DNA from: Haloferula rosea
GTDB taxonomy: Bacteria; Verrucomicrobiota; Verrucomicrobiia; Verrucomicrobiales; Akkermansiaceae
Assembly (NCBI RefSeq): GCF_016595525.1
Contig: NZ_JAENII010000003.1
Location: forward strand, 124,001-188,000
Length of the DNA: 64,000 bases
Reading direction: 5' to 3'
Part shown: piece after piece, positions 38,088 to 42,914 of the stretch
How positions within the stretch are numbered: position 1 is the stretch's first letter
Layout of the letters: the number at the start of each line of letters is the position of its first letter
Translations under genes and position numbers: made by a program
Notes under the pieces: model-generated
What the model was told of the DNA's origin: nothing
The model's database searches: none
Seen by the model: only the letters and a program-made list of their open reading frames with translations

Positions 38088-38275
38088 CAAAAAAGTGGGG
38101 GCTGCGCACTCACGCAGCCCCCGAATTGTCATGAAATTAAAGTTTCGCTGGGGTCTCCCTCGCAGCTGGGTGAAACATGCACGAAATGACGCTTCGTGTC
38201 ATGCCCCCATAAATAGGGGCGTAGCCACAAGACGCCTACCTTGAGCGACTTACATCCGAAATCACCTGGAAAAAA
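38088..38275 (-). ncRNA. Duplicated structured RNA element, copy 1
   Basis: A 188-nt non-coding element that is repeated at 39926-40113 with no net insertion or deletion. Bases 38088-38220 (133 nt) differ from copy 2 at about 15 positions, roughly 89 percent identical; the outer 55 nt keep the TTTTTTCC block at exactly the same distance. Read on the minus strand the 3' end is a 10-bp hairpin, GGGGGCTGCG against CGCAGCCCCC, loop TGAGTG, followed by AC and six Ts, an intrinsic terminator. Upstream are a GCCCC/GGGGC hairpin, a CACGAA/TTCGTG hairpin (copy 1) and a nested GTTTC, CAGC, GGG helix. The element starts just after the UbiE-like gene stop. No open reading frame of note fits. I do not recognise the RNA family; small RNA, 3'-UTR RNA or leader are all possible. 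Confidence 0.6.
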
Positions 38276-38282
38276 CCTTCCT

Positions 38283-39014
38283 TCAGGGCTTCTCAGCGTG
38301 ATATTCGCTGAAAATGCTCATGATCGGGCGCCGTTCCACGTTCTTGAATCCCGCCTCCTTGAGCGCCGCAAGGATGTCCTCCGGCGGCACGCAGGCCTCG
38401 ATGGTCTCCCAGTAGTAGGCGAACATTTCCTCCGCATCCTCACTCCCCGTCACCACCTTCGACATGGCCGGGATGATGTCGCGGAAATACAGCTTCGCGA
38501 GTGCCATGCCGACCTTGGTCTTCGGGCGGGAGATTTCGAGAATCAGGGCCTTCCCTCCGGGCTTCAGCACACGCAGGTATTCCTTGAAGGCCAGCACCAG
38601 ATCCGAAACGTGGCGCAGGGCGTAACCCATCGAGAGGAAATCAAACTCATTGTCCTCCACCGGGAGCTCCTCAGCGCGTCCCCGACGGAAATCGGCATCG
38701 ATGGTCTTCTTCGCTTCCGCCATCATGCCCGAGCTGGGATCCACCGCGACCACCGAGCCTTCATCACCGACGATCTCAACCCCGGGGCGCGTCACGGCAC
38801 CCGTACCGCAGGCGACATCAATCAACCTCATCCCGGGTTTCAAGCCTGCCAGCTGGAGCGCCCGCTTGCGGTAGGCATGGCCGCTTCCCAAGAAGCCGAT
38901 TTTGCCGATGACATCGTAATAGGGAGCTCCCCGGTCAAACAGGTCTTCCACGTATCCAGGACGTTCGGACTCCGTTTGATAGCGTTTCAGGATCGGTTTA
39001 TGGGGCGTGCTCAT
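38283..39014 (-). CDS. UbiE/COQ5-like methyltransferase
   Basis: 243 residues of the class I methyltransferase fold. The UbiE-like landmarks are LIDVACGTGAVT (SAM motif I), LSMGYALRHVSDLVLAFKEYLRVLKPGGKALILE and a preceding YYDVIGKIGFLGSGHAYR. Ubiquinone/menaquinone C-methyltransferases share this layout, but the C-terminal tail (NVERRPIMSIFSEYHAEKP) differs from the canonical UbiE end, so the substrate may be another quinone-like or lipid molecule. The ATG at 39014 is chosen over 39047. It is the 3'-most gene before RNA element copy 1, on the same strand. Confidence 0.78.
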   Translation of the reverse strand: MSTPHKPILKRYQTESERPGYVEDLFDRGAPYYDVIGKIGFLGSGHAYRKRALQLAGLKPGMRLIDVACGTGAVTRPGVEIVGDEGSVVAVDPSSGMMAEAKKTIDADFRRGRAEELPVEDNEFDFLSMGYALRHVSDLVLAFKEYLRVLKPGGKALILEISRPKTKVGMALAKLYFRDIIPAMSKVVTGSEDAEEMFAYYWETIEACVPPEDILAALKEAGFKNVERRPIMSIFSEYHAEKP

Positions 39015-39080
39015 GGTCGACGGCGGCACCCTAGACCCGGGATTCACAAGAGGTCGAGCGCGATACGCTGGAAAAACCGC

Positions 39081-39860
39081 CTATTTCCACTCCGATCGCG
39101 CCTCCTCGAGCAGACGGACGAAGGACGAATTCGACAGAAGCCCATCGACGATCTGCCTCGCCAGCAACCGTCCCGCCTCGGTATCGCTCGGGAAATGCAC
39201 CCCTGCCACCTCCCGGTTCTCTCCAATCCGGCGCGCATCCTCCAAATAGCGGCCCGCCTGATCGGGGTTCAATTCCTGCAGTAAATACGCCAGCCCATAC
39301 GCCCCCGTGGCATGCCCGCTTGGATACGCCGGATGCCCGGGAATCTCGATCGAGGATGAAAGCGGGATCTCCAGCCTGCCAGCCAACACCGAAGGTCGGA
39401 CCCGGTCAAAACGCTGCTTGAAGACGAAGGTCACCACCGTCAGATCCAGATACGCCAGCTTTAGTAATTCACCCGTCTTCGAGAATTCCTTCCGCGTGAT
39501 CAGGTCCTCATAGCGATGATCACCAAAGCGGAAATTCTCCACGAGGATCTCGCGATTGATTGCCTCCTGATGCTGTTCACGCTTCTCCATCTGCTCCACC
39601 AGGAACTCCAATTCAGCCCGCGTGCGTGCCGATGAATTCGCCGGTGGCTCGACCAGTTGGAATCGCTGCTTCCAATCCGCAGGCAGGAACTTCGTCCGCC
39701 CCCTGGCCCACTCACTGAACTCCCGCCCCCAGGCCGACGTGTTGCGAAACCCGACTCCATCGCAGGCCGCATCCGCCCCGGCTCCAGAGAGGTGCTTGAA
39801 ATCATCGGCAGCCACCACCGCGACTACCACCAGATTCCATAGCACGATCAACCCCTTCAT
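39081..39860 (-). CDS. Secreted class A acid phosphatase (PAP2)
   Basis: 259 residues with an N-terminal signal sequence (LIVLWNLVVVAVVAA). The three phosphatase motifs are present: KQRFDRVRPS (KxxxxxxRP), YPSGHATGAYGLA (PSGH) and NREVAGVHFPSDTEAG (the late His/Asp motif). This order is typical of bacterial class A non-specific acid phosphatases such as PhoN, which cleave phosphate from nucleotides and sugars in the periplasm. RNA element copy 2 ends with a terminator about 65 bp upstream of its start, so transcription of this gene could be controlled by read-through. Confidence 0.85.
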   Translation of the reverse strand: MKGLIVLWNLVVVAVVAADDFKHLSGAGADAACDGVGFRNTSAWGREFSEWARGRTKFLPADWKQRFQLVEPPANSSARTRAELEFLVEQMEKREQHQEAINREILVENFRFGDHRYEDLITRKEFSKTGELLKLAYLDLTVVTFVFKQRFDRVRPSVLAGRLEIPLSSSIEIPGHPAYPSGHATGAYGLAYLLQELNPDQAGRYLEDARRIGENREVAGVHFPSDTEAGRLLARQIVDGLLSNSSFVRLLEEARSEWK

Positions 39861-39925
39861 GGGCCACCATGATGCGGTCCTCCCTCATCGAAACAACCCT
39901 TTCCAAGACGAATCCAGCACGTGGG

Positions 39926-40113
39926 CAAAAAAGTGGGGGCCGCGCACTCACGCGGCCCCCGAATTGTCATGAAATTAAAGTTTTGCTGGGGTCTCCCTCG
40001 CAGCTGGATGAAACATGCACAAATTGGCGTGATTCGTCATGCCCCCATAATTTGGGGCATACCCGTAACTCACTGATCATCAGATGAAAACCTCGGAAAA
40101 TGACCGGAAAAAA
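39926..40113 (-). ncRNA. Duplicated structured RNA element, copy 2
   Basis: Second copy of the element at 38088-38275. The terminator stem is GGGGGCCGCG against CGCGGCCCCC: both partners of one pair differ from copy 1 (U-A changed to C-G), a compensatory change in a stem. The T6 tail and loop are identical. A stretch of 28 nt between the nested helix and the terminator is unchanged in both copies and is predicted to be largely unpaired. On the minus strand this copy lies between the response-regulator stop (40116) and the PAP2 start (39860), so it could act as an attenuator leader for PAP2, or as a separate small RNA. Confidence 0.6.
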
Positions 40114-40115
40114 GT

Positions 40116-40835
40116 TCAGGACAGGTCGAGAAACCCACGGCGGATCGCCTCACTAACGGCAGCTGGGAGGTTGCGGACATGCAATTTGTCGAAGCTCCGC
40201 TTGATGTAGTCCGTCACCGTATACTGGCTGATGCCAAGGGCGTCGGCGATCTCCTGGCGGGTCAGTCCTTTCGCGGACAACTGCAACACTTCGCGCTCCC
40301 TCTCGGAAAGCGCCTCGCCCTCGGTCACCGGGCTGATTTGCCGGAAGGTCTGCAGGATCATTCCCGCGATCTTCGGATCCAGCGGCGTTCCTCCCGCAAG
40401 CACTTCCTCAAGGGTCGAGATCAGACGCGTCGCGCTCCCCGCCTTCACGAGATACCCGTGGGCCCCCGCTTCGAGCGCGGCAAAAACCTTCGCCTTGTCC
40501 GTGAAGGCCGTCAGCACCAGCACCTGCACCAGCGGAAGGATCTCGCGGATCTGGCGGATGCCATCAATGCCACTCATGCCGGGCAGTCCGAGGTCGGACA
40601 GGACAAGGTCGGTCTCCAAGCCTCCACGAAATTCCTCCAGCGCATCCTCCATGTTGGAGAACTCGCCCACACACTCGTAGTTTCCGCGCTGCTCCAGCAC
40701 CATCGATACCGATTCGCGGAAATCCGCGTGGTCCTCGATGAGAACAATCCGCACCAACTTCGCTTCGCCACCCACGTCCTCTGTCGTTTCCTCTGACACT
40801 GCCGAAAAGACTAGCCGATCCCCTTCAGTCAGCAA
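40116..40835 (-). CDS. NarL/LuxR-type response regulator
   Basis: Up to 239 residues. The receiver domain has RIVLIEDHADFRES (acidic pocket), phospho-acceptor Asp in LVLSDLGLPGMSG (about residue 81) and HGYLVKAGS (conserved Lys). The C-terminal LuxR helix-turn-helix is LSEREREVLQLSAKGLTRQEIADALGISQYTV. The start is unclear: TTG at 40835, GTG at 40799 or 40775 are all in frame and none has a clear SD. It lies 33 bp or more downstream of its cognate kinase on the same strand and would be phosphorylated by it. The target genes cannot be told from the sequence. Confidence 0.88.
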   Translation of the reverse strand: MLTEGDRLVFSAVSEETTEDVGGEAKLVRIVLIEDHADFRESVSMVLEQRGNYECVGEFSNMEDALEEFRGGLETDLVLSDLGLPGMSGIDGIRQIREILPLVQVLVLTAFTDKAKVFAALEAGAHGYLVKAGSATRLISTLEEVLAGGTPLDPKIAGMILQTFRQISPVTEGEALSEREREVLQLSAKGLTRQEIADALGISQYTVTDYIKRSFDKLHVRNLPAAVSEAIRRGFLDLS

Positions 40836-40868: not shown

Positions 40869-42914
40869 TCACGACTTCCTGCGGCGCTTCTTCTTCACCG
40901 CGAGCGGAATCCTCAGGTCGAGCACGGTTCCCTCGCCACTCGCCGTCTCCACATCCATCGTCGCCTCCAGCGCCGCGACCCGTTGGCGCAGCGCCCGCAG
41001 CGTCGACTTGCGCGCCATCCGCTTCTCGTCGATGCCACAGCCGTTGTCCGCGATGACGAGGTGAAAACTCTCCTCGTCCTGATCGACCCGCACCGTCACC
41101 TCGGTGGCCGACGCATGCCGCAGGATGTTGTGCAGCGCTTCCCGGAAAAACAGGAAGAGATGGCGGTTCTGTTCATCCGAGAGTTCCCCCTGCCAGGCTT
41201 CTTCATTGGCCGTGAACTCCCACTTCATCGGCTCGAGCATGATCGAACTCGTCTCCCGAAGGTGCTCCACCGTCCCGATCCGGTGATCTCCCCCGGGGCG
41301 CAGCAACCACACGATGTCGCGCACCGCACTGACCGTTTCAGCCGCGATCCGCTGGATCCGCTTCAGTTCCTCCGAGGGCCCCGAACGCCCCTCCGCCAGG
41401 TCGGCGAACATCTGAATGCTGCCCAGGTTGCTGCCCACCTCATCGTGCAGATCCCCCGCGATGCGCTCGCGCACCTTGCCGAGCTCGCGCCTCTCACGCA
41501 CCCGGTATCTCAAGGGAAGGGCGATCAGGACGAAAGCACCCGCCGCCCCGAGCAGGGCAACTACGGTAAACCCCATACGACGCCAGCCGTAGATGATGTC
41601 CCGCACTTCCTGCTCGAGTTCATGGCGCTTCGTTTCCAACTCCAGCCGCCGGTCCAGCAGCTTCAGCCACTCCCTCCGCGACACCAGTTTTCCTTCCGGT
41701 CCGAAGCCGTCACACAAACTCACCGCGCTCCAGTAACGCGAACCGGGAGCCACCACATTGCCCATCCCGTCGGGTGACCTGACCGCCGCCCCGAGCGCGA
41801 CGTTCCCGGCCCCGTCAAGGACCTGGATCTCGCTCAGCGCAAAGAACGCCGGGTAGCTCTCGAACTCCTTCCACAATTCGGTCGCCTCGATCCGCACGAA
41901 CCGCCCCCGCGTCCGCTCGAGCGGCAGATAGAATGGATTGTGTCCCGGATTCCCCAGCTTCCCGGATTCGAGCACGATCCGCCCCGTCGCCTCACGCCCT
42001 CCTCGCTGATCAGACACCGAAATACGCAGCTGCTTGGGGAAACCAAACCCGCTCGGAAGATCCGCCGTCGGACGTTTCGCCGGGAACAACTTCAACCCGT
42101 CGAACTCACGGGACTCGCCGAGATCGAGCTCCAACCAGGCCGCGTCCAGCGCGCGGGCCCGGCCATTGGAGATCCAGCCCACGTTCCGATGCTCGCCATC
42201 CACCACTTCCGGCAGCCCCAGCGGCGTCTGACCATCCAGCAGGAACTCATTCCTCCAGTGCCACGGAGACGCCGGCGACATGCTCCCCGCCACCTTTACA
42301 GTCGCGCGCCGCGCCACATTCTCCTCCCCATCGAACACCATCGCTTCGGCCCAGGCATGGACGTAGCTGTCGGAAACATCCGAATCCAAAGCGAGCCGGC
42401 CCGCCACGATCCTCATGCCCCAAGCCACCACCGGCTCCGCCAACTCATAGACGAAAGGATGTCCCGCCCTGACCGGGTCCGACCACAAGCCATGCTCGTT
42501 GGCGACCACCTTCACCACCGCACCCTTCTCATCAAGCAACTCGAGCTTGAACGCATCAGGCATGCCGAACTGCGGGTCCAATCCATCCACTTCATACCGC
42601 CTCGCCGGCACCAGCGCGACCATCCCGACCCGCGCTTCCTTTTCGAAAACCAGTGACACCGCATGGTCCCCGGCCTTCTTCGGCACCGCTTGGGGATGGA
42701 GGCTGGCAAACCCGCCGGTTCCACCCTGGTCATCCGCCGGCAGGCCGGGCAGGCCCGGCAGTTCTTCCTCGACCCTGCCGAGCTCAGCCTCGGCCTCAGC
42801 CAGACGCCCCGAAAGCGTCCGAGCCAACCGCTCGTCCCAACCGCCCTCCTCCGCCAACGCGGGAAGCACCACCCCAACAAGGACGAACGGGATGCTCAAT
42901 CGTGGGAACCTCAT
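40869..42914 (-). CDS. Sensor histidine kinase with discoidin-like sensor domain
   Basis: 681 residues. A signal sequence at 1-21 is followed by a large extracytoplasmic part. Residues about 195-370 have an F5/8 type C (discoidin) pattern: VARRATVKVAGS, LLDGQTPLG, AWLELDLGESREFDGLKLF and RFVRIEATELWKE. One transmembrane helix lies at about 449-468. The kinase core is of the NarX/DesK type: RIAGDLHDEVGSNLGS (HisKA_3, phospho-His about residue 490), FREALHNILRHA (N box) and IADNGCGID (G1 box). Discoidin domains bind carbohydrates or lipids, so it may sense extracellular polysaccharide, although no ligand is shown. The C-terminal tail is basic (KKKRRRKS). Its partner response regulator follows directly. 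Confidence 0.87.
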   Translation of the reverse strand: MRFPRLSIPFVLVGVVLPALAEEGGWDERLARTLSGRLAEAEAELGRVEEELPGLPGLPADDQGGTGGFASLHPQAVPKKAGDHAVSLVFEKEARVGMVALVPARRYEVDGLDPQFGMPDAFKLELLDEKGAVVKVVANEHGLWSDPVRAGHPFVYELAEPVVAWGMRIVAGRLALDSDVSDSYVHAWAEAMVFDGEENVARRATVKVAGSMSPASPWHWRNEFLLDGQTPLGLPEVVDGEHRNVGWISNGRARALDAAWLELDLGESREFDGLKLFPAKRPTADLPSGFGFPKQLRISVSDQRGGREATGRIVLESGKLGNPGHNPFYLPLERTRGRFVRIEATELWKEFESYPAFFALSEIQVLDGAGNVALGAAVRSPDGMGNVVAPGSRYWSAVSLCDGFGPEGKLVSRREWLKLLDRRLELETKRHELEQEVRDIIYGWRRMGFTVVALLGAAGAFVLIALPLRYRVRERRELGKVRERIAGDLHDEVGSNLGSIQMFADLAEGRSGPSEELKRIQRIAAETVSAVRDIVWLLRPGGDHRIGTVEHLRETSSIMLEPMKWEFTANEEAWQGELSDEQNRHLFLFFREALHNILRHASATEVTVRVDQDEESFHLVIADNGCGIDEKRMARKSTLRALRQRVAALEATMDVETASGEGTVLDLRIPLAVKKKRRRKS

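Follow-up and report, generated by a model that had tools for sequence, protein, structure and literature searches.

The two similar repeats at positions 38088–38275 and 39926–40113 of the window, the 64,000-nucleotide stretch of DNA analysed here, are probably complete genes of a regulator-activated, multicopy and base-pairing small RNA family, wired like the Gac–Rsm and CiaR–csRNA systems but new. In the mechanism that we envisage, a histidine kinase would phosphorylate the response regulator encoded beside copy 2. A dimer of this regulator would then occupy a 20-bp palindrome beside the -35 box, with its predicted centre near -44, and activate a weak sigma70-type promoter; binding and activation are deduced from conserved synteny, co-occurrence and the form of the operator. 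The product would be an RNA of about 80–83 nt, predicted to be expressed, whose architecture is visible in the DNA: a hairpin that would protect the 5' end, then an unpaired stretch containing UUUCAUGAC, and last an intrinsic terminator. More speculatively, in hosts without Hfq or CsrA, UUUCAUGAC may pair with GUC-AUG-AAA-like translation starts and so block ribosome binding, and variation of copy number by duplication could provide a higher dose or varied targets.

The two copies in the window

On the minus strand, both copies present the same order of a palindrome, a -35-like box ATGAC(A/G), a variable spacer, a -10-like box and a predicted RNA of about 83 nt made of a 5' hairpin, the single-stranded motif and a terminator (Table 1). 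They are equally long and the same at 148 of 188 positions; the original prediction of about 15 differences among the first 133 nt proved right, as a recount gave exactly 15 there, with 25 more in the remaining 55. BLAST and a repeat finder matched them over 142 nt at 87–88%, and they are the only two copies found in the 4.68-Mb window genome. Identity by segment was 82/86 in the RNA core, 6/6 in the -10 box, 9/17 in the spacer, 21/25 in the operator and -35 box and 30/54 in the outer flank, a pattern that by itself separates the putative transcribed and signal parts from free spacer.

Both copies lie, as had been noted, just after the stop of a minus-strand gene, copy 1 3' of a UbiE-type methyltransferase gene and copy 2 3' of a response regulator gene. 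These neighbours had been called unrelated, and the one beside copy 2 is instead the probable regulator of the RNA. The terminator hairpin with its T6 tail is present in both copies, and the reported U-A to C-G stem change is real and falls inside this hairpin, where the wider family shows the same covariation. The shared outer block TTTTTTCC exists as described; it is best read as a residue of duplication, since the upstream flanks of both copies align above chance (score 41 against 24.6 +/- 4.0 in shuffles, 0/500) and the block is absent from the corresponding place in the other genomes compared.

Table 1. Predicted features of the two copies and of the adjacent two-component system (window coordinates)
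Feature	Position	Strand	Basis
Copy 1 operator, 20-bp palindrome CGCCCCTATTTATGGGGGCA	38202..38221	-	Column-wise conservation in 75 copies; RNA covariation only in window genome
Copy 1 -35-like ATGACA	38197..38202	-	GAC invariant at fixed position in 75 copies
Copy 1 promoter spacer, 17 bp	38180..38196	-	9/17 same between window copies; low information in 75 copies
Copy 1 -10-like CATGTT	38174..38179	-	A at position 2 in 70/75, last T in 65/75; TATNCT at about the same place in g57
Copy 1 predicted small RNA, ~80-83 nt	38088..38170	-	Start placed from -10 box; covariance model R1 match; fold z -3.8
Copy 1 5' hairpin GCUGCGAGGGAGACCCCAGC	38147..38166	-	Predicted fold; helix covaries in family
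Copy 1 single-stranded UUUCAUGAC, complement of GUCAUGAAA and candidate seed	38128..38136	-	Invariance; unpaired probability
Copy 1 intrinsic terminator hairpin and T6	38089..38122	-	Two-sided changes at 9/10 pairs in family
Copy 2 operator, 20-bp palindrome TGCCCCAAATTATGGGGGCA	40040..40059	-	Conservation in 75 copies
Copy 2 -35-like ATGACG	40035..40040	-	Conserved in 75-copy alignment
Copy 2 -10-like CATGTT	40012..40017	-	Same in both window copies
Copy 2 predicted small RNA	39926..40008	-	R1 match; also end to end by R3, a model from another family only
Copy 2 single-stranded UUUCAUGAC	39966..39974	-	Invariance; unpaired probability
Copy 2 terminator hairpin and T6	39927..39960	-	Family covariation
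NarL/FixJ-type response regulator, probable activator	40116..40835	-	Response_reg and GerE domains; orthologues precede RNA in most carriers
Cognate histidine kinase (HisKA_3), sensor region F5/8C-like	40869..42914	-	Domains; syntenic in relatives

The neighbouring two-component system

A HisKA_3 kinase and a Response_reg/GerE regulator are encoded directly before copy 2 (window 42914–40116). The N-terminal region of the kinase resembles F5/8 type C (carbohydrate-binding type) domains with a match below the Pfam cut-off, hinting at a glycan-related signal, and the true start of the regulator is probably downstream of the TTG that opens the frame listed in Table 1. The order kinase, regulator, RNA is conserved in relatives: in the 10-kb loci compared, one to three RNA copies come after regulator orthologues of 79–86% identity, and relatives of the regulator include those of Haloferula luteola YC6886, Haloferula sp. 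BvORR071 and Luteolibacter marinus NBU1238. Among 45 loci retrieved by the regulator protein, the operator lies shortly downstream of the regulator stop in 33, while 12 have no operator nearby. In a sample of the order, 25 of the 26 genomes with the regulator at at least 78% identity also have the RNA, a co-occurrence nested in two related genera and therefore not independent of ancestry; in one genome (G290) the regulator is present and the RNA was not found. In four genomes (G210, G240, G292 and G176), an RNA copy lies on another contig than the regulator.

Scanning the 18 genus genomes with TGTCCCAAATCTTGGGGACATGACA at up to three mismatches returned 30 sites against none for a reversed control, and comparison with the coordinates of the covariance model R1 (below) shows that each of the 30 precedes an RNA match by about 51 bp. 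The window copies have the lowest operator scores (19.0 and 27.7, against up to 45.2) and are so divergent that they fall outside this search. A symmetric operator change from TGT..ACA to TGC..GCA occurs only in the window genome, and only the window regulator has the recognition helix TVTDYI, where the others have S-x-TEYI. The altered E-to-D position is what we take to be a DNA-contacting residue in NarL. Confined to one lineage, this joint change of helix and operator is no more than suggestive of a regulator–operator match.

A different controller of the LuxR/NarL type could instead govern the same small RNA, or the regulator could repress it, with the adjacent pair merely a frequent neighbour. 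The window genome indeed encodes a paralogous regulator 62% identical to the adjacent one (G000:C10:9876), dispersed copies lie far from the kinase–regulator pair, and operator binding by the adjacent regulator is a prediction. However, the conserved gene order, the co-occurrence and the joint change specific to the window speak against such a controller, as does the same order in g57, a genus of another family, around a regulator 35–36% identical to that of the window. We regard this alternative as unlikely and retain the adjacent regulator as the candidate activator.

In the whole window genome, TGYCCC-N8-GGGRCA occurs at six places (L134–L139), against one for a reversed control, and these are possibly sites of the paralogous regulator. 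At L136, the palindrome continues with ATGACA. At L138 (G000:C33:368926), TATACA stands 16 nt after the palindrome TGTCCC-N8-GGGACAAGACA, ahead of a secreted-protein gene starting MKTHEPTPRW; this protein gene may belong to the same regulon or to a paralogous one.

Predicted RNA gene and DNA operator

The original prediction treated each repeat as a structured RNA element of 188 nt. The predicted transcript covers no more than the 3' part of about 83 nt, and the outer 100 nt or so would instead hold the operator, the promoter and leftover duplicated flank. Within the RNA, 13 of 14 pairs show two-sided changes among 53 aligned matches (90 cells, against 21 in shuffles). The upstream palindrome TGTCCCAAATCTTaGGGACA, in contrast to these covarying hairpins, is near-invariant in 75 copies. 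Over 63–75 copies, no compensatory change was found in it outside the window genome, where pair 3/18 changed from T-A to C-G on both sides, and pair 5/16 is broken (C-T or C-C) in 13 copies without compensation. With its sequence fixed and its pairs broken, the palindrome behaves as a DNA operator and not as an RNA stem. The GCCCC hairpin, earlier taken for such a stem, is best read as this DNA palindrome, with 13 broken and hardly any compensated pairs in the 75 copies.

All 75 copies share a fixed architecture of operator, wGACA, a 17-nt low-information spacer and CAtnTT, which is a predicted sigma70-type promoter whose -35 box directly adjoins a palindromic operator; the transcript would start about 6–8 nt downstream of the -10 box. 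TATNCT-like boxes at the corresponding place in g57 support this promoter reading.

A structured RNA of about 190 nt that includes the upstream GCCCC hairpin, for instance a riboregulator or a 3'-UTR element of the preceding gene, would accommodate the ability of the palindrome to fold, the two-sided change at pair 3/18 in the window and the folding of the full-length repeats, which is better than that of shuffles (z -2.95 and -2.09). It is nevertheless quite improbable, given the fixed sequence and broken pairs of the palindrome, the lack of further stem compensation in the copies aligned, the variability of the next 17 nt followed by a -10-like box at a fixed distance, and the dispersal of copies 3' of many different genes. 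A coding function was also considered and rejected: peptides read from the conserved ATGAC have no common sequence across copies, and their lengths to the terminator differ modulo 3.

Distribution of the predicted small RNA genes

BLAST of the element against 57 relatives gave matches in 10 of the 18 genus genomes, the window genome included, and in no other genus. The covariance-model search of relatives that had been recommended as a check was made with R1, built from 16 copies, and revealed covarying homologues in 17 of these 18 genomes (all 16 near-complete ones) with 1–5 matches each, and in g13, a related genus of the same family (Akkermansiaceae). R1 matches at E 0.001–0.005 in G231, G289, G039 and G153 were treated as chance; a match in G003:C8 and terminator-only matches of the R2 search (below) were left out because they come without the operator. 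RNA-level covariation and the many homologues bear out the suggestion of an undescribed small RNA family on the minus strand. Its lack of a known family also stood: Rfam 15 at gathering thresholds returned no family in the window, nor did it at the elements in 12 related loci, and relaxed thresholds gave only weak sub-threshold matches at the elements. An exact 30-mer of the element had no match in the genome contig collection, and the 25 matches of a 15-mer in viral contigs were scattered and at about chance level.

Some copies of the sister genus g13 carry a different single-stranded region in place of UUUCAUGAC. In one subclade (L244, L245, L253, L264 and L228), UUUCAUAAGGGAUUGUGAA or a sequence near it replaces UUUCAUGAC while the operator is otherwise unchanged, suggesting a switched target set. 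Three sister-genus copies (L258:3671-3824, L220:3667-3830 and L220:4831-4994) have a second 5' hairpin next to the first, the loops of both being similar, which looks like a duplication of the hairpin itself.

The element had alternatively been seen as an attenuator. It does possess a strong intrinsic terminator, and copy 2 lies about 65 bp before a PAP2-phosphatase gene. A terminator or attenuator module for a downstream gene is still very unlikely, since the roughly 850 bp beyond copy 1 hold no minus-strand gene, tandem copies have another copy as their next element, and a crude ORF count put the next gene on the same strand 38 times against 32 on the opposite one, leaving no constant sense-strand gene as expected downstream of an attenuator or riboswitch leader. 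A mobile, MITE-like repeat without any function for the cell, which the multiple dispersed and sometimes tandem copies might evoke, is scarcely credible against the low copy number (1–8), the presence in every near-complete genus genome, the compensatory changes and the recurring place after the regulator gene.

Possible mode of action

Neither Hfq (PF17209) nor CsrA/RsmA (PF02599) was found in the 18 genus genomes, with positive controls for both. The motif UUUCAUGAC does not vary among the first 16 genus copies and has a mean unpaired probability of 0.64 against 0.37 elsewhere. Its complement, GUCAUGAAA, reads as a start codon with a lysine codon after it. By analogy with the streptococcal csRNAs (below), we propose that pairing through UUUCAUGAC could block translation start sites. 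A strict ten-base target search with GTCATGAAAT in six genomes, with the sites of four inspected, brought no recurring gene, and many sites in these four lay outside gene starts.

Related elements beyond Akkermansiaceae

With R2, a model of operator, promoter and RNA together, 384 genomes of the class were searched, and convincing full-length matches outside Akkermansiaceae came from the genus g57 alone. The g57 copies have the operator TGTCCCCACAACTGGTGACA, a TATNCT-like -10 box whose T, A and T are invariant in nine copies, and a different RNA body; at two loci (L323 and L326), they lie about 20–25 nt after the stop of a NarL-type regulator gene that itself follows a kinase gene. R3, a model made from g57 copies only, matched copy 2 of the window, along with further copies in Akkermansiaceae, over their full length (E 1e-5 to 7e-3). 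Within the g57 order it found elements in 69 of 293 genomes, in 27 genera and with up to 8 copies. Those inspected in this order share a palindrome like TGTCnCCAGtACTGGTGACw, the -10 box and the terminator, most of the families inspected have a GUUCUC loop, and no regulator of the NarL/FixJ type was seen beside the copies inspected in its other families. At L352 (G617:C610), an R3-type element has four matches to Acido-Lenti-1 RNA (RF01687) no more than about 1.1 kb away.

The families of the g57 order and of the window may have either one ancestor or a common switch only, since at 35% identity their regulators are no closer to each other than many NarL proteins are. Going further, we tentatively entertain, at somewhat less than an even chance, a class-wide system of Verrucomicrobiota in which an ancient palindromic operator and promoter cassette, driven by NarL-type two-component systems, would mostly serve small RNAs. 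Their bodies would have been swapped or have diverged while the switch was kept, giving the UUUCAUGAC type in Akkermansiaceae and the GUUCUC-loop type in other families, and at least the window's genus would apparently operate without Hfq and CsrA.

Significance and comparison with known systems

Catalogues of small RNAs hold very few from bacteria other than Proteobacteria and Firmicutes, and a 2022 review counted 8 distinct annotated ones for the whole Planctomycetes–Verrucomicrobia–Chlamydiae group (PMC9029176). The present family has covariance support; its candidate regulator can be named, its operator is precisely placed, a seed is predicted and some hosts are in culture (Haloferula luteola and Luteolibacter marinus), so that control by the regulator and Hfq-independent pairing are directly testable. 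The R3 cassettes of another order suggest a common mechanism missed by annotation.

The five copies of the ~110-nt LhrC1-5 of Listeria are controlled by LisRK and act on lapB mRNA independently of Hfq (PMC4132741). As multicopy RNAs under one two-component system with Hfq-independent action they are comparable; they differ in their CU-rich pairing sites and in having no defined LisR consensus, and are without sequence relation to the window RNA.

The streptococcal csRNAs are several similar small RNAs under one two-component system (CiaRH) in hosts without Hfq, with two stem-loops and a conserved unpaired region between them that carries a CAU anti-start codon (PMC3091779). The window RNA is likewise multicopy, linked to a two-component system and Hfq-free, and its UUUCAUGAC is an unpaired CAU anti-start-type motif between two stem-loops. 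The CiaR site is a direct repeat, TTTAAG-N5-TTTAAG (PMC3091779), whereas the promoter region here has a 20-bp inverted repeat and the regulator is of the GerE-containing NarL/FixJ type and no CiaR orthologue; the sequences are unrelated and the phylum is another. CiaR also controls protein genes, unlike the window system as we read it.

In Pseudomonas, GacS/GacA–RsmX/Y/Z combines a kinase and a NarL-type regulator with a palindromic upstream activating sequence and duplicating multicopy small RNAs (PMC2375449, PMC7911923). The window system may share this wiring, with a conserved palindrome adjoining the predicted -35 box and the gene of a NarL-type regulator adjacent, and GacA is among the better NCBIfam matches of that regulator, though below the cut-off. 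The RsmY model scored 13.6 bits at the element against a cut-off of 57. That no CsrA/RsmA was found in the 18 genus genomes sets the RNA apart from sequestering RNAs of the CsrB/RsmY type, as the same result for Hfq does from Hfq-dependent ones. Another difference is that here the regulator gene has an RNA gene immediately after it. The kind of system is thus known from Pseudomonas and Streptococcus, while the literature and databases searched appear to contain no description of the family, of the type and position of its regulator or of its spread in Verrucomicrobiota. The window feature is best described as a new two-component-linked, multicopy small RNA family with a defined, predicted operator.
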